From assembly GCA_003712055.1 (NCBI GenBank), contig RHLJ01000003.1:62001-126000 (forward strand): a stretch of 64,000 nt of DNA, read 5' to 3'. The notes under the pieces were generated by a model. The model was not told the origin of the DNA, ran no database searches, and saw only the letters and a list, made by a program, of their open reading frames with translations. This document shows positions 1,891-28,450 of the stretch, one piece after another. Made by a program: the position numbers and the translations under genes. The stretch is from Balneola sp. GTDB lineage: Bacteria; Bacteroidota; Rhodothermia; Balneolales; Balneolaceae. Positions within the stretch are counted from its first letter, which is position 1, and each line of letters opens with the position of its first letter.

Positions 1891-2190
1891 TTACTTTCCT
1901 ATTGTAACCAGAGAATCTTCTGTGCCAAATTCGTTGGCAACATAGGCATCGGCTTCATAGTCGTTTTCCCATGTTTCGCCATCAATTAAATACTTGAACC
2001 GATACTCTGATTCTGGTTTCAGACGAAGCTCAGTTTCATAATATCCGTTCTTCTTTTCAAGTTTAATTGCGGTAGCATCCCAGTCGTTAAAATCTCCGGC
2101 TAGTGATACTTCTTTTTCAACAATCTCAGAAGGAACAGTAAATGTTACCTTACATACAGTTCTCTTAGGGGTAAATTTCTTTTCTAACAT
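1891..2190 (-). CDS. Stand-alone CBM48/AMPK-type glycogen-binding domain protein
   Basis: This 99-aa protein is almost entirely one immunoglobulin-like early-set domain of the AMPK-beta/isoamylase (CBM48) type. Visible hallmarks are VSLAGDFNDWD near residue 30 and YRFKYLIDGETWENDYEAD, which match the carbohydrate-facing loops of this family. There is no catalytic domain, signal peptide or membrane segment, so it is probably a small cytoplasmic glucan-binding protein or adaptor. It lies immediately upstream of birA (5 bp) and is separated from ptsI by 230 bp that must hold its promoter. In this bacterial group such single-domain proteins are common and uncharacterised. Binding to glycogen is inferred from family membership only. 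Confidence 0.8.
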   Translation of the reverse strand: MLEKKFTPKRTVCKVTFTVPSEIVEKEVSLAGDFNDWDATAIKLEKKNGYYETELRLKPESEYRFKYLIDGETWENDYEADAYVANEFGTEDSLVTIGK

Positions 2191-2420: not shown

Positions 2421-4133
2421 TTAATCCCAGGCTCGATATAACTCTCTAACCTCTTCACTGGTAGAACAGTTGAGCACTGCTTTCGAAAATTTATGGAGCT
2501 CCTCTTGAGAACGCTGAATAAGCAGACCTTTAATTTTTGGTATAGATGAAGGAGACATACTCAAATCGTTAATCCCAAGCCCTAGTAAACAAGCAGCGCC
2601 TATTTCGTCTCCAGCTAATTCACCACATACACTGATTTGAATACCATTGTTTACTGCGGCATCGTAAGAAGTTTGTATAAGCTTCCAAACAGCCGGATGA
2701 TAATGTTGATACATCGAGCAAATGCGTTCATTACCTCTATCTACAGCTAATGTATATTGAGTAAGATCATTTGTACCAATACTTAAAAAATCTACTTTTT
2801 TTGCTATATGATCAGCCATTAAAGCAGCACTTGGAACCTCAATCATAACCCCAAGCTGAACACCTTCATCAACAGTAAAACCCTGATTTTTCAACTCATC
2901 CTGTAAAATATTGAGCTCAGTTCTTACTTCTTCGATTTCTTCTACAAAGCTTATCATTGGAACCAGAATCTTAATCCTACCTGGGTATTTACCTGCAGTT
3001 TTAAGAATAGATCGGAGCTGACTTTTAAACATCTCCCCTTCATCAAGTAGCATTCGAATGCCTCTCCAACCTAAAAACGGGTTTGCCTCTTCGTGTGTAT
3101 GAGAAATTAACTTATCGCCCCCAACGTCAAATAGACGTATAGTTACTTCCCCTTCACTTTTTGAGAGCACCTCTTCATAAAACTTATCCTGCTCAGATTC
3201 ACTTTTATTGGCAATTCCCCCAAACAATAATGCCTCAGTTCTGAGTAGCCCGATACCAGTTGCATTAAATTTTTTGGCCAGTTTTAACTCCTGAACAAAT
3301 TCAATATTTGCTCTAATCGTAAAATCTTTACCATCCTTTGTTGTTGAAGGCTTACTTGTAACCGCAACGGCATTCCTCAGCCTTTTCTCTTTTTTTTGAG
3401 CTGTTTTGTAGTCTGATGTAGTTTGAGATGAGGGATTAAGTATAAGCTCTCCGTTATTTGCATCAAGTATTGCTTTCTTTGATAAACCCGAAGAAGAAAC
3501 GGCATCTTTAGTGCTTACTAAACATGGTATTCCGAGTGACTGAGCAATAATAGCTGCATGTGAAGTTATTCCTCCTTTATCCATAACCAATCCACCTATT
3601 CCCTGTTCGAAATAATGTATCAGGTCGGTTGGACTAATATCTTTCACTATGAGTATTGTCCCCTTCTCAACAATAAGAGCGTTTCTATTTTCGCAGGACA
3701 ACCCAATTAAGCGGTCCCTAATATTTTCTATATCTACAATACGCTGCTGAAATAATTCGGAGCCGCTCTCTCTTAATCGCTCAATAAATTCGTTAAACAC
3801 CTTATAAATGGAATAATCAACGGAGTATTGCTCCACTTCGATAGAAGCATTAATTCGTTTTTCAATTTCAACATCAGAAACAATATGCTTTTGGGTTTCT
3901 AAAATACCCGCTGTTTTTGTATCAAGATTTGTTGAGAGGGTGTCAAGTTCTTTAAGAAATAGCTGCTTTGATTTCGCAAAGCTTTTAAGATGACTAAGAA
4001 TTGATTCCGAATTAATCTTTTTTGGCTGAACCTTTCTCTTCTTGTTGTCAATAACAAGAACATCTCCAATTGCTATACCTTCGCTACCCGGAAGACCTTT
4101 TATCGATATTTCTTGAGTCGCTAACTTTTCCAT
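2421..4133 (-). CDS. ptsI: Phosphoenolpyruvate-protein phosphotransferase (PTS enzyme I)
   Basis: Enzyme I takes phosphate from PEP onto a histidine and passes it to HPr. The protein is 570 aa, the usual size for EI without the GAF domain of the nitrogen paralogue PtsP. The N-terminal HPr-binding domain is followed by the phosphohistidine domain, with GGITSHAAIIAQS placing the active His at about residue 192. The C-terminal PEP-binding barrel has LLRTEALLFG, ANPFLGWRGIR, GVMIEVPSAALMAD, SIGTNDLTQYTLAVDR and the catalytic Cys in SVCGELAGD. It sits 5 bp downstream of the HPr gene. No EIIB, EIIC or sugar-specific EIIA gene is present in the window, which suggests a regulatory rather than transport role here. 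Confidence 0.97.
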   Translation of the reverse strand: MEKLATQEISIKGLPGSEGIAIGDVLVIDNKKRKVQPKKINSESILSHLKSFAKSKQLFLKELDTLSTNLDTKTAGILETQKHIVSDVEIEKRINASIEVEQYSVDYSIYKVFNEFIERLRESGSELFQQRIVDIENIRDRLIGLSCENRNALIVEKGTILIVKDISPTDLIHYFEQGIGGLVMDKGGITSHAAIIAQSLGIPCLVSTKDAVSSSGLSKKAILDANNGELILNPSSQTTSDYKTAQKKEKRLRNAVAVTSKPSTTKDGKDFTIRANIEFVQELKLAKKFNATGIGLLRTEALLFGGIANKSESEQDKFYEEVLSKSEGEVTIRLFDVGGDKLISHTHEEANPFLGWRGIRMLLDEGEMFKSQLRSILKTAGKYPGRIKILVPMISFVEEIEEVRTELNILQDELKNQGFTVDEGVQLGVMIEVPSAALMADHIAKKVDFLSIGTNDLTQYTLAVDRGNERICSMYQHYHPAVWKLIQTSYDAAVNNGIQISVCGELAGDEIGAACLLGLGINDLSMSPSSIPKIKGLLIQRSQEELHKFSKAVLNCSTSEEVRELYRAWD

Positions 4134-20007: not shown

Positions 20008-22113
20008 TTAGCTTATCATTTTCTGGAGTGCTTTTATATCCTCCTTATCTCCAATAATGGAAAGTTCATCTCCTTCTTGAAGTACTGTGATACCGTGGGG
20101 TATTTCAATATTACCCTGCCTGTGAATGATAGTAATCAAACTCTGACCTGGAAGTCTGATATCTTTGATCATCTGCCCGATAAACAGATTCGTTTCATCT
20201 TCAGGCTTTAGAGTAATACGAATAAAACGTTCGTCTCTAAGTAAAATCTCCCTCAATTCAACTTCAGTTTCTGCGCCATTCCATCTCTCTATGAAGTTAT
20301 GAATCCCAACTTTTTGAGCAATTTGAGCAAGCATTCGCAAATGTTGACCCGTGTTGTTTTGAGGACTAATTAAGAACAGGATTGCACTAAGCGTTTCCGA
20401 CCCCGATTGATCAGAGGCCAAATGCTTCATATCCTCAGTTTCGAGTCCTTTTTTAATTCTCACCAAAACCATCTCTGGTTGGATATCACCTTCCAGCTTA
20501 GCATGATTTAATGCCACTCCTTCTGCGATAGGTATGATATGCTCCTGATCAAAATCCTTAAAAAGTGTTTCTAGTTCTTCTAAAGGGGTATTTAATTTTT
20601 GAGCAAAACGCTCCGAGACTTTGTCTACAATTGCCGAATACTTTGCATTATTCGTTATATCCAGCACTTCAGATCGAGAAATCATCTCTTCATACTGGTC
20701 CTCTTGCCGTAAGCCTTTTTCCTTCAAAATACCCCTCATCTCTCGCTCAAGGCCTGAGTCTTTGTTTTCTCCTAATCGAGCATGCACGTGAAAAATAGCC
20801 CCTTGCCTATCTACTTTCTCAGCGGCATAATACTTATACCATACCACTCCAAAAACGCACACAATGATGGTAAACAGAATGGATAATCCACCCATCTCAA
20901 AGATGAGTACAATAGAAAGGATCATTCCCGCTATCTGAAGCCATGGGTAAAAGGGAGAATGGAATCCGGGATCATATTCTTCGATCCTACTTTCTCTCAT
21001 TACTATAACCGCCAAATTTAGAAGCAGGAATAATAGTAACTGGAATGCACTAGCGAGCTTTGCTACTTCTGCTACATTAAGGGCTAATAAAATAATCAGC
21101 ATCATAACCACTGTGCCTAATACTGACCAATGCGGAGTACCAAGCCTTCCGATTTTAGCAAACCGTTCGTTAATCAGTTTGTCTCGAGCCATTGCCATCG
21201 GGTATCTGGAAGCTGACATAATCCCTGCATTTCCAGTAGATGCAAAGGCAGCTACTGCCGCTATTACAACCAGAATCAGGCCTGTTGGCTCGGGCAACCA
21301 GTTAAGGAACACATCCCCAGCAGTAGCTACGGGGGTAAGGTCTTCGCGAAACTCGTTGGGGTCTAACACTGAAACCATTATAAACACCCCAACCACATAT
21401 ACAAACACAGCGGTGATGATTGCGAGAAACATCCCCAAAGGAATATTCCTATCCGGATTTTTTACTTCCTCTGCTATACTGGCAACTTTTGTAAGGCCGG
21501 CATAGGAAACAAATACCATCCCTACGGTTGCAAAAAATCCATAGTATCCATCTGTAAAAAGAGGAGTAAATCGATCGGAAGTTTGTTCCATCATTCCCGG
21601 TGAAAATACCGCGAACAAACCCTGAAGCACATAGAAAATCATAATTGTAACTAGTGCTGCTACAAGTACCTTTTGCAAAAAGGTAGTCTCTTTAGCTCCA
21701 ACCACGTTCAAAATCCCAAAAATAATAGTCAGAATTACTGCTACCGGAATAATGGGCACATCATAGAAAATAGCGATATAGGCGCCCATACCGATCAACG
21801 CGAAAGCACTTTTCAGAACCAGTGCAATCCAGGAGCCAAAGCCCCCAATTGTACCAATCATTGGTCCTAAACTTCTATCGATAATATAGTAGGTCCCACC
21901 GGCTTTGGGCATAGCTGTCGCCAACTCAGCTACACTGAACATGGTAGGCAGTACGATAATACCTGAAACGAGATAGGCCAAAAATACGGATGGCCCTGTC
22001 TCAGCAGCAGCTAAGCCCGGAAGCAAAAAGAATCCTGAACTAAACATTGCCCCTGTAGCGATTGCATATACGTCGGAGAGACCAAGTTCTTTAGCTAATT
22101 TGTCGTGGGCCAT
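20008..22113 (-). CDS. APC-family amino-acid permease with EIIA-like and RCK_C domains (copy 1, His retained)
   Basis: The 701-aa protein starts with about 420 residues of a 12-span APC amino-acid/polyamine permease (SSGFFLLPGLAAAETGPSVF; AMPKAGGTYY; FVSYAGLTKVASIAEE). A cytoplasmic region follows. Residues about 480-630 resemble a PTS EIIA type-2 (PtsN-like) domain: EGVALNHAKLEG places His537 where PtsN has its phospho-accepting His (GVAIPHGKL), and AILFLISPQNNTGQHLRMLAQIA fits the second half. Residues about 630-701 resemble an RCK_C/TrkA-C ligand-binding domain (SLITIIHRQGNIEIPHGITV; GDELSIIGDKEDI). It is tandem with a paralogue, and ptsH/ptsI are in this window. Regulation of transport by phosphorylation and ligand is inferred; the substrate is unknown. 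Confidence 0.88.
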   Translation of the reverse strand: MAHDKLAKELGLSDVYAIATGAMFSSGFFLLPGLAAAETGPSVFLAYLVSGIIVLPTMFSVAELATAMPKAGGTYYIIDRSLGPMIGTIGGFGSWIALVLKSAFALIGMGAYIAIFYDVPIIPVAVILTIIFGILNVVGAKETTFLQKVLVAALVTIMIFYVLQGLFAVFSPGMMEQTSDRFTPLFTDGYYGFFATVGMVFVSYAGLTKVASIAEEVKNPDRNIPLGMFLAIITAVFVYVVGVFIMVSVLDPNEFREDLTPVATAGDVFLNWLPEPTGLILVVIAAVAAFASTGNAGIMSASRYPMAMARDKLINERFAKIGRLGTPHWSVLGTVVMMLIILLALNVAEVAKLASAFQLLLFLLLNLAVIVMRESRIEEYDPGFHSPFYPWLQIAGMILSIVLIFEMGGLSILFTIIVCVFGVVWYKYYAAEKVDRQGAIFHVHARLGENKDSGLEREMRGILKEKGLRQEDQYEEMISRSEVLDITNNAKYSAIVDKVSERFAQKLNTPLEELETLFKDFDQEHIIPIAEGVALNHAKLEGDIQPEMVLVRIKKGLETEDMKHLASDQSGSETLSAILFLISPQNNTGQHLRMLAQIAQKVGIHNFIERWNGAETEVELREILLRDERFIRITLKPEDETNLFIGQMIKDIRLPGQSLITIIHRQGNIEIPHGITVLQEGDELSIIGDKEDIKALQKMIS

Positions 22114-22212
22114 AAAAAAAGTTAAGTCTGATGATATTGCTTATCTATTCAACAGTATAAAGAAGTATGAGTAAACAACCATTATCTACTCACTTCTTTT
22201 CCAGATAGTGCG

Positions 22213-22236
22213 AATTTGATAAGTACCAATCAAATT
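22213..22236. promoter_or_regulatory. Dyad AATTTGAT-N8-ATCAAATT between the two permease genes
   Basis: A perfect 8-bp inverted repeat with an 8-base spacer lies about 100 bp upstream of the copy 1 permease start. The same half-sites, with a 4-base spacer, recur at 27583-27602 upstream of the His-rich gene. Could be an operator or a weak hairpin. Confidence 0.35.
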
Positions 22237-22273
22237 TAACTTTTAAAAAAACAGAATCAGATTGGATAAGTAA

Positions 22274-24364
22274 TTATTCTTCAAGGCCTTCCTTGAGTAC
22301 CTTTATATCGTTAGGATAACCTAGAATAGATAGTACATCTCCGGATTCTAACTTGGTTTTCCCTTTTGGAATAACGATTTCCCCGTCTCTCTCAATAATG
22401 GCAATCAAGCATTCCCCGGGTAAGCTTACATTCATAATCTCTTTTCCTATCCACTCTTCTGACTTTGTATGCTCCTGAAGGCGAATATGGATAAAACGCT
22501 CATCAGTCAGAAGTACATTCTTTAGCTCCTTTTCACCCTCGGCCTGTTTCCACCGCTCCAAAAATTCTTCCGCTTCAATTAGCTCTGCTAGATGACCGAT
22601 AATCCGCATGTGCAAAAGAGGACGGTCAGCGGGTGTAACCAAGAAAATCATAGCATGTGCCTTATGCTCTTCTTTTCCAATGTTTAACACCATTCCCTCT
22701 TTTGATTGTATAGCAATCATCTCAGGAATCTTCACTTCTTCTACTTGTACATACTTGAAGAATACACCTTCTTTTAACTGGGTAAAATTCTGTTCGAAAT
22801 TAGAAAGGCTATCTTTTAAGACTGTTCGCTCCACACTTACCTTGCGATCAAGATTTATCGTGGCTTTCATCAATAGCCGTTCAAAATTCGTTTGCTGATC
22901 GGTAGCCTTTATTATCGTCGACCTTGCTATTACTTCTTCATAGGTAAGAGCGGTATTAAGGTTTTTCTCATTAATGATGGTCATTAACTCATGTTCCAGC
23001 GCCTCATATCTTAACTGACCCAACCGGGCATGAATATGGTAAATAGCTCCTTGTCGCTTCACCTTTCCATGAGAATAATAGAAATACCAGCCAATGCAGA
23101 TTATAATTAATGTGCCAGTAAGACCTACGGCCAATAATCCCATCTCGGCAACCAGCCACAATGAAATAATCATACCTGCAATTTGAACCCAAGGATAGAA
23201 TGGAGATTTATAGCCAGGTTTATAAGCCTCAATCTTACTTTCTCTCATCACTATTACCGACAAATTAATCAGGAAGAAAAGTAATAGTTGAAATGCACTG
23301 GCAAGTTTCGCTACAGCCTCTACATCAAATAGTATGAGGACTAAGAGCATGACCCCGGTAGTAACTAATACCGAAATGTGAGGGGTTTTGAATTTTCCAA
23401 TCCTGCCAAACTTAGAACTAATCAAATTATCCCTACTCATTGCGAGAGGATACCTGGAAGCAGACATAATTCCTGCATTCCCGGTTGATGCAAAGGCAGC
23501 TATTGCTGCAATTACTACTAATAAAAGCCCTGAATTACCGGGCAGAAAGTCTAAAATCACTCTCCCAGCATCGGCTACCGGGGTAAGACTTGAAAATAAT
23601 TCATCAGCGGGTAACACATTTACCATGATATATACCCCAACTACATACACAATACTTGCAGTCAATAGTGACAATATCATTCCTAAAGGAATAACCTTAT
23701 CCGGATTTTGGACTTCCTCAGCAATACTGGTTGCCTTCGTTAAACCCGCGTACGAAACGAATACTAATCCAATGGTAGAGATGAAACCATTTATTCCGTT
23801 AGTGAAAAAATCTTGTTGTCTGAGCTCTGGTAAAGGATTCTGAGCTATATACATGTAATTCAGGCCCTGAATTACAAAGAAGGCCATAATCACTACTAAT
23901 GAAGCAACAAGTATGCGTTGTAGTAATGCGGTTTCCTTAGCGCCAAAAATGTTAAGCAATCCAAAGGCTACTGTTAATACCAGTGCAAGGGGAAGAATTG
24001 GAAGATCGACGAATAAAGTCAGATATGCTCCCATCCCAATCAAGGCGAAGGCACTTTTAAAAACTAATGCTATCCAGGAACCCAGCCCTCCTATTGTTCC
24101 AATCAATGGACCTAAACTACGATCAAGAAAATAGTAAGTACCACCAGCCTTTGGCATTGCTGTAGAAAGCTCTGCTACACTAAACATTGATGGTAAAATT
24201 AAAAAAGCAGCGGCGAGGTATGCTAAATACACTGCACTACCTGTTTCCATGGCAGCAATACCGGGCAAAAGGAAAAAGCCCGAACTAAACATAGCTCCCG
24301 TACTTACTGCATAGAGGTCAAAAAGCGTAAGCTTTTTAGATAGTTTTTTTTTCGATTCGGCCAT
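22274..24364 (-). CDS. APC-family amino-acid permease with EIIA-like and RCK_C domains (copy 2, His replaced)
   Basis: This is a 696-aa paralogue of the 20008 gene with the same layout: about 425 residues of APC permease (SSGFFLLPGIAAMETGSAVY; FVSYAGLTKATSIAEEV), an EIIA-2-like region, then an RCK_C-like C terminus (CLIAIIERDGEIVIPKGKT; GDVLSILGYPNDI). At the position equivalent to the phospho-accepting His it has Tyr538 (EGVFFKYVQVEE), so if the EIIA assignment is right this copy cannot be phosphorylated. It is separated from copy 1 by 160 bp and is divergent from lysA across 212 bp. Placement beside lysA/lysC hints at lysine or a related amino acid as substrate, which is speculative. Confidence 0.87.
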   Translation of the reverse strand: MAESKKKLSKKLTLFDLYAVSTGAMFSSGFFLLPGIAAMETGSAVYLAYLAAAFLILPSMFSVAELSTAMPKAGGTYYFLDRSLGPLIGTIGGLGSWIALVFKSAFALIGMGAYLTLFVDLPILPLALVLTVAFGLLNIFGAKETALLQRILVASLVVIMAFFVIQGLNYMYIAQNPLPELRQQDFFTNGINGFISTIGLVFVSYAGLTKATSIAEEVQNPDKVIPLGMILSLLTASIVYVVGVYIMVNVLPADELFSSLTPVADAGRVILDFLPGNSGLLLVVIAAIAAFASTGNAGIMSASRYPLAMSRDNLISSKFGRIGKFKTPHISVLVTTGVMLLVLILFDVEAVAKLASAFQLLLFFLINLSVIVMRESKIEAYKPGYKSPFYPWVQIAGMIISLWLVAEMGLLAVGLTGTLIIICIGWYFYYSHGKVKRQGAIYHIHARLGQLRYEALEHELMTIINEKNLNTALTYEEVIARSTIIKATDQQTNFERLLMKATINLDRKVSVERTVLKDSLSNFEQNFTQLKEGVFFKYVQVEEVKIPEMIAIQSKEGMVLNIGKEEHKAHAMIFLVTPADRPLLHMRIIGHLAELIEAEEFLERWKQAEGEKELKNVLLTDERFIHIRLQEHTKSEEWIGKEIMNVSLPGECLIAIIERDGEIVIPKGKTKLESGDVLSILGYPNDIKVLKEGLEE

Positions 24365-27616: not shown

Positions 27617-27643
27617 ACACGCAATGATTGAATCTTGTTAATA

Positions 27644-28450
27644 ATGAAAAATCTACCTTTCAAAGTTTTTGGAATTGTTTGTGCAATCGCGGTTATGCTC
27701 TACATTTTCAATTCTAATGATTCAGTAGCCAAAAGTGCCGAGTCGGTAGCAGCAATGGCTAAAGAACTCCATGATCATCATCACGGGGACGATGGACATG
27801 CCAACGAGCATGAGCATCATCACTCAGAAGATGGGCATGCAAATGAACACGAACATCACCATGGCGATGATGGGCATTCCAGTGAACACGAGCACCATCA
27901 TGGAGAGGACGGGCATTCGAATGAATACGAACATCACCATAGTGAAGGCACTCATGATTCTAATCATGGTCACCATCATGCAGAAGATGCACATTCGGAC
28001 GAACACGATCATCATCATGGTGAGGATGGGCACTCGGGAGATCACGAACACCACCATGGCGACGATGGACACGCCAATGAACATGAACACCACCACGGAG
28101 ACGATGGGCACGCGAACGAGCACGAACATCATCATGGAGACGATGGGCATGAAAATGAGCACGATCACCATCATGGAGAAAATGCAGAAGCCCACCATCA
28201 TCACGCAGAAGATGGACACATGAATGAGCATGATCACCACCATGGAGATGATGGACACGCAAATGAGCATGAGCACCACCACGGAGACGATGGACATGCG
28301 AACGAGCACGACCATCACCATGGCGACGACGGGCATGAAAACGAACATGAACACCATCACGATGAAGACGGTCATGACAATGAACATGATCACCATCATA
28401 GTGAAGGCGGCGATGAGCATCATCACCATCATGATGATTCTGACAACTAG
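27644..28450 (+). CDS. Histidine-rich 13-residue tandem-repeat protein (putative metal binder)
   Basis: This 268-aa protein has an N-terminal hydrophobic segment (MKNLPFKVFGIVCAIAVMLYIF), a signal peptide or anchor, so it is probably periplasmic or membrane-tethered. From residue 43 almost the whole chain is about 18 copies of a 13-residue unit, consensus HEHHHGDDGHANE. By my count about 87 of 268 residues are His, with abundant Asp/Glu and no Cys or Lys in the repeats. I chose ATG 27644 over the TTG three codons upstream. Such sequences bind Zn, Ni, Cu or Co in other proteins; sequestration or transport buffering is inferred. I recognise no named family. Two dyads lie just upstream and a terminator-like hairpin just downstream. 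Confidence 0.85.
   Translation: MKNLPFKVFGIVCAIAVMLYIFNSNDSVAKSAESVAAMAKELHDHHHGDDGHANEHEHHHSEDGHANEHEHHHGDDGHSSEHEHHHGEDGHSNEYEHHHSEGTHDSNHGHHHAEDAHSDEHDHHHGEDGHSGDHEHHHGDDGHANEHEHHHGDDGHANEHEHHHGDDGHENEHDHHHGENAEAHHHHAEDGHMNEHDHHHGDDGHANEHEHHHGDDGHANEHDHHHGDDGHENEHEHHHDEDGHDNEHDHHHSEGGDEHHHHHDDSDN
27770..28447 (+). repeat. 39-bp coding tandem repeats (about 18 units)
   Basis: Near-identical 39-bp units encode the His-rich repeats. Most are 13 residues. One is shortened (HDHHHGENAE, followed by AHHHHAEDGHMNE), and the last two are degenerate. The most similar units are central, which suggests recent expansion by slippage or unequal recombination. Confidence 0.85.

Follow-up and report, generated by a model that had tools for sequence, protein, structure and literature searches.

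LacS of streptococci and lactobacilli carries a C-terminal EIIA domain that is reported to be phosphorylated by HPr, and a 2023 review names it as the only bacterial transporter under control by direct phosphorylation (PMC10710835). TrkA and YcgO of E. coli are both targets in trans of PtsN in its unphosphorylated form (PMC13104625, PMC11808508), which binds the RCK-bearing antiporter YcgO and was proposed to block RCK-mediated activation, although the mechanism is still open (PMC11808508). In many bacteria, enzyme I (EI), HPr and PtsN occur without a sugar permease of the phosphotransferase system (PTS), and the targets of this relay outside Proteobacteria are largely unknown. Here we analyze two adjacent genes, copy 1 and copy 2, in a 64,000-nucleotide stretch of the Balneola sp. 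genome (contig RHLJ01000003.1, positions 62,001 to 126,000; hereafter the window, in whose own numbering positions are given). Both encode APC-superfamily secondary transporters with a cytoplasmic tail made of a linker, an EIIA-Ntr fold and an RCK_C domain, in that order. We give an even chance to the reading that this tail gates the transporter in cis, copy 1 being switched by the PTS and copy 2 locked. In a transporter with EIIA-Ntr and RCK_C modules of its own, the relay would have a direct output in a single protein; if the reading is true, direct phosphorylation would control a bacterial transporter in a second instance that is independent of LacS.

Like the window proteins, LacS is a secondary transporter whose C terminus carries an EIIA-type domain; however, it is a GPH-family sugar transporter with EIIA-Glc, whereas these are APC proteins with an EIIA-Ntr fold and RCK_C. 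A LacS-type transporter was rejected, Pfam giving APC and PTS_EIIA_2 in place of the GPH membrane domain and EIIA-Glc. PtsN and YcgO/CvrA, as well as TrkA and KdpD, bring together an EIIA-Ntr module and an RCK-bearing transporter, but in trans and on a CPA1 antiporter or other K+ proteins, whereas the window proteins are cis fusions; YcgO moreover has an extra CorC domain. GkApcT, CAT4 and AdiC share the membrane part but lack the EIIA/RCK_C tail. The cytoplasmic domain of band 3/SLC4, compared by fold match only and not by sequence, also places an EIIA-like fold on a transporter, but is eukaryotic and has no PTS. LacS shows that HPr can phosphorylate a fused EIIA (PMC10710835), and in YcgO PtsN meets an RCK-bearing partner; the present tail joins both modules in cis, as a cis version of the PtsN–YcgO interaction. 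By analogy, the fusion would work like both systems, yet it is neither. A preliminary description of this DNA knew of no system of this kind; the principle is known from LacS, in cis, and from the trans action of PtsN on TrkA and YcgO, but no description of an APC–EIIA–RCK_C fusion was found in the literature searched, where absence is no proof.

Both reading frames lie where the preliminary description had placed them, and the motifs it quoted are exact. The two proteins share 53% identity, and their genes are separated by 160 bases. The membrane domain of copy 2 matches AA_permease_2 with an E value of 1.5e-43 (copy 1 is given in Table 1). In the PDB, the permease domain best matches the APC amino acid transporters GkApcT (5oqt/6f34), CAT4 and AdiC; among the NCBIfam matches listed for it, no subfamily reached its cut-off. 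In the tails, a Pfam scan assigned PTS_EIIA_2 (PF00359) to copy 1 at 39.3 bits (E 7.8e-10) and to copy 2 at 31.5 bits (E 2e-7), both above the curated cut-off of 27 bits, and the score reaches 65.8 bits in one relative (L068). TrkA_C/RCK_C scored 42.5 and 41.6 bits, respectively, also above the Pfam cut-off. A profile built from 72 tails retrieved PtsN structures as its best PDB matches (4gqx with E 2.3e-11, 3urr, 2a0j and 1a6j), followed by TrkA_C proteins. In the AlphaFold2 models of the tails (predicted local distance difference test scores of 76.7 for copy 1 and 84.2 for copy 2), the first Foldseek match was EIIA-Ntr in both cases (1a6j, E 2.9e-9 and 2.5e-8, respectively; 2a0j, target TM 0.81 for both). 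RCK_C structures came next (3jxo, 5f29), including cyclic di-AMP (c-di-AMP)-bound 5f29 and 4ys2, and cytoplasmic domains of band 3/SLC4 (AE) were further fold matches. A UspA-type tail, either KimA-like or CPA2-Usp, was rejected, as neither copy has a Usp match in the Pfam scan and the predicted fold is that of EIIA. Thus the EIIA identity and the RCK_C-like domain, both claimed previously, hold on Pfam, the PDB profile search and the predicted structures. The linker of copy 1 matched no Pfam family; R436, G438, A439, G448 and E458 within it are 100% conserved in the 129 His-bearing members. Its conservation equals that of the membrane part within the clades of family f1 and exceeds it within the clade of copy 2, and it is likely the coupling element of the tail. 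The EIIA domain is the region that changes fastest among the parts of the permease.

The relatives were drawn from a Bacteroidota sample of 296 genomes, about 48 of them with full-length APC-type members, and from a wider scan with membrane-domain motifs against 84,980 species genomes, which gave at least 555 loci in about ten phyla. The 80 outside relatives examined are those scoring best against a query that includes the tail, and hence lean to complete tails. According to their record titles they belong to Ignavibacteria, Rhodothermia, Desulfuromonadales, SAR324, Dadabacteria, Latescibacterota, Planctomycetota, Gemmatimonadota, Verrucomicrobia and Calditrichaeota, and most are metagenome-assembled genomes. 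Although the median column conservation of the EIIA domain is about 50%, His537 of copy 1, which a profile alignment matched to the phospho-His of the standalone PtsN of this genome, is invariant: it is present in 33 of 33 rows of the copy 1 clade and, together with His591, in 80 of 80 outside relatives. Arg552 is retained in all 129 His-bearing APC members and in nine of nine antiporter fusions. It is replaced by Gln or His in the clade of copy 2 (8/8) and in family f11 (3/3), and is retained in a third paralogue. Since both groups that lost Arg552 are also His-less, His and Arg were lost together twice, separately.

Copy 2 has no phosphorylatable His at this position but Tyr538, with Tyr or Phe in all eight rows of its clade (Shimodaira–Hasegawa-like approximate likelihood ratio test, SH-aLRT, 100); the second active-site His is present in both copies. 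The three f11 rows have Tyr, and the third paralogue has Tyr, Gln or His, so that parsimony needs three changes at the His position on the tree. A recent tandem duplication as the source of the window pair was rejected, because the copies fall into separate clades (99–100% SH-aLRT) that diverged at the family's base; in the tree, copy 2 thus belongs to an old paralogous clade. The pairing of a His copy with a Tyr copy, read in the preliminary description as one responsive and one non-responsive permease, is real as a pattern but not general. The window and two close relatives have a His copy and a Tyr/Phe copy side by side, whereas G065, G171 and G046 have a Tyr/Phe copy alone, G123 has a pair of Tyr copies, and genera g6 and g8 of family f1 have two or three copies with His.

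The window also encodes HPr and EI, as had been noted, and their presence tracks that of the permease. All 48 permease-bearing Bacteroidota genomes have both, compared with 215 (HPr) and 210 (EI) of the 296 in the whole sample; Fisher's test gives p ~6e-8, for genomes that are not phylogenetically independent and with no correction for phylogeny. In other lineages HPr was found in 41 of 44 permease genomes, the three genomes without a hit being metagenome assemblies whose completeness is not stated. The ptsH gene shares a contig with the permease, 11–22 kb apart, in 21 of 30 genomes of the source's family and, about 20 kb apart, in two genomes of another family. The term orphan, earlier applied to this EI/HPr pair, does not stand: a standalone PtsN (G000:C1:455297) with an intact AIPH motif and an HPr kinase are encoded elsewhere in the genome, so the two proteins are not a chain ending at the permease. 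A sugar-PTS enzyme II was rejected, as the genome has neither a PTS_EIIC of the PF02378 type nor EIIA-Man, other EIIC families not having been searched. The genome's PTS is regulatory, with PtsN as its obvious acceptor.

In the mechanism that we propose, phosphate would pass from phosphoenolpyruvate (PEP) via EI and HPr onto His537 in the EIIA domain of copy 1 and alter the grip of this domain on RCK_C, so that transport would report the PEP supply. In the most economical model, phospho-His537 would loosen the EIIA–RCK_C clamp when PEP is plentiful; we infer this direction from PtsN on YcgO, by analogy with which unphosphorylated EIIA would be the inhibiting form. RCK_C may bind a ligand too, such as c-di-AMP. 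Copy 2 would be locked in one state, because Tyr538 and the loss of Arg552 would bar phosphorylation while the fold stays, and the natural His/Tyr pair would provide a built-in control. Central carbon metabolism may thereby control these transporters directly. That the PEP–EI–HPr relay phosphorylates the transporter itself across this widespread family, with switch-dead paralogues beside switchable ones, is put forward tentatively, with slightly less than even confidence.

Several observations weigh against phosphorylation of the tail. The motif of copy 1 is GVALNH, compared with G-x-A-x-P-H, Pro536 being replaced by Asn. The Arg that the genome's own PtsN carries 16 residues before the His, which we take to be Arg57 of PtsN, is missing from nearly all fused members, being Phe in copy 1 and Gly in most of the others; many relatives instead have an Arg 14 residues before the His, where copy 1 has Gln. 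Because the site has drifted in this way (Asn536, no PtsN-type Arg), phosphorylation of copy 1 is less certain than that of relatives with the PH motif. The standalone PtsN with its intact site gives HPr an obvious other partner. His-less EIIA tails are kept in the clade of copy 2, in f11 and in CPA2-Usp-EIIA antiporters, from which it follows that the EIIA domain can serve without phosphotransfer. Finally, HPr and EI were not found in f12 genomes, nor was PtsN in the three of them tested, and the same genomes (L091, L092, L093) keep a His-bearing CPA2-TrkA_N-EIIA antiporter; in these fusions an EIIA-like module may have outlived its PTS, or the donor may have escaped detection.

The drifted site, the persisting His-less tails and the f12 antiporters would all make sense if the EIIA-like domain were an unphosphorylated regulatory or dimerization domain that binds a partner or ligand, as in band 3/SLC4, whose AE cytoplasmic domains stand next among the fold matches; the His would then be structural or serve in binding. 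We regard this as unlikely, though the most serious alternative, for the invariance of His537 in a domain of such low median conservation and the near-perfect tracking of HPr/EI by the permease run counter to it, and the joint loss of His and Arg552 in two separate clades suits a phospho-site better than a scaffold. The constant company of PtsN, which was found in all sampled genomes with an APC-type permease, and the trans effect that it has on TrkA and YcgO in E. coli (PMC13104625, PMC11808508) would also fit a tail that serves as a docking platform for standalone PtsN, the signal being the phosphorylation state of PtsN rather than that of the permease; as this leaves the invariance of the tail's own His and Arg552 unexplained, we consider it distinctly improbable. 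Least probable of all is a main control by RCK_C, for example as a c-di-AMP receptor, beside a decaying EIIA relic: the c-di-AMP-bound fold matches, a DAC-domain protein (c-di-AMP synthesis) encoded in the genome and the fast change of the EIIA domain agree with it, but the domain persists in about ten phyla with its active-site His unchanged in 80 of 80 relatives.

Table 1. Positions in the window of the two permease genes, their domains and active-site residues, and of HPr and enzyme I
Feature	Position	Strand	Evidence or remark
Copy 1, 701 aa (APC permease, linker, EIIA-Ntr-like domain, RCK_C)	20008..22113	minus	
Copy 1 membrane part, residues 1-430	20824..22113	minus	AA_permease_2, Pfam E 2.7e-43
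Copy 1 linker, residues 436-480	20674..20808	minus	Column conservation
Copy 1 EIIA-Ntr-like domain, ~residues 481-625	20239..20673	minus	Pfam PTS_EIIA_2; Foldseek 1a6j, 2a0j, 3urr
Copy 1 RCK_C/TrkA_C domain, ~residues 630-701	20011..20226	minus	Pfam TrkA_C; Foldseek 3jxo, 5f29, 4ys2
Copy 1 His537, in EGVALNHAKLEG (20488-20523)	20503..20505	minus	Aligned with phospho-His of PtsN
Copy 1 Arg552	20458..20460	minus	Kept in His-bearing members
Copy 1 His591	20341..20343	minus	Equivalent of the second conserved His of EIIA
Copy 2, 696 aa (architecture as copy 1, Tyr instead of His)	22274..24364	minus	
Copy 2 EIIA-like domain, residues 488-618	22511..22903	minus	Pfam PTS_EIIA_2; Foldseek top match 1a6j
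Copy 2 RCK_C/TrkA_C domain, residues 635-691	22292..22462	minus	Pfam TrkA_C
Copy 2 Tyr538, in EGVFFKYVQVEE (22736-22771)	22751..22753	minus	At the phospho-His position
HPr, sole HPr of the genome	4139..4411	minus	LHARPSAALVK; proposed phosphoryl donor
PTS enzyme I	2421..4133	minus	GGITSHAAI active-site motif

EIIA tails also occur on CPA2 antiporters (Salinibacter-type f5/f8, f12 and Ignavibacteria), which share the EIIA module with the window proteins, and in f5/f8 RCK_C as well, but differ in their Na_H_Exchanger membrane domain, often accompanied by TrkA_N or Usp. In f5 and f8 (L086–L089), two families of the source's class, the EIIA and RCK_C tail is joined to a protein with Na_H_Exchanger and TrkA_N; thus the tail, as a module, has passed from one transporter superfamily to another. 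CPA2 antiporters with Usp and EIIA-like domains adjoin the permease at five loci (L048:1502-3976, L058:6616-9090, L062:9803-11992, L063:1753-4218 and L045:9649-11982); two score above the Pfam cut-off, and L062 falls below it. Their motif GVVLYDAH puts Asp at the phospho-His position, so that among EIIA-tailed antiporters the His is lost in this type and kept in Ignavibacteria.

At 22 of 33 loci of the source's family, versus two of 80 outside loci, the permease has a Na+/H+ antiporter gene (CPA or NhaA) no more than 5 kb away, and the source genome has only two PF00999 genes. This neighbourhood was therefore rejected as a general sign of cation function, being lineage-specific; in the source's lineage it hints at cation or pH homeostasis, without settling the substrate. 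Lysine or histidine was not adopted as substrate, as the neighbours lysA, lysC and hisS flank the locus in the source's family only, which looks like chromosomal order. Promoter and terminator scans at the locus gave no signal beyond shuffled sequences. At 16 loci, mostly of Ignavibacteria, a nitroreductase-family gene lies 3' of the permease on the same strand (e.g. L096:9046-9747).

Near ptsHI, a 99-aa protein of the AMPK1_CBM/CBM48 glycogen-binding type is encoded between the EI gene and a BirA-like gene (1891-2190, minus strand). On the plus strand, a gene at 27635-28450 with a 39-base tandem repeat encodes a protein of 271 aa. Its N terminus is a signal or anchor, and about sixteen units of 13 aa in it are rich in Gly, His and the acidic residues Asp and Glu. 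The protein matched no Pfam family and is possibly a metal-binding envelope protein.

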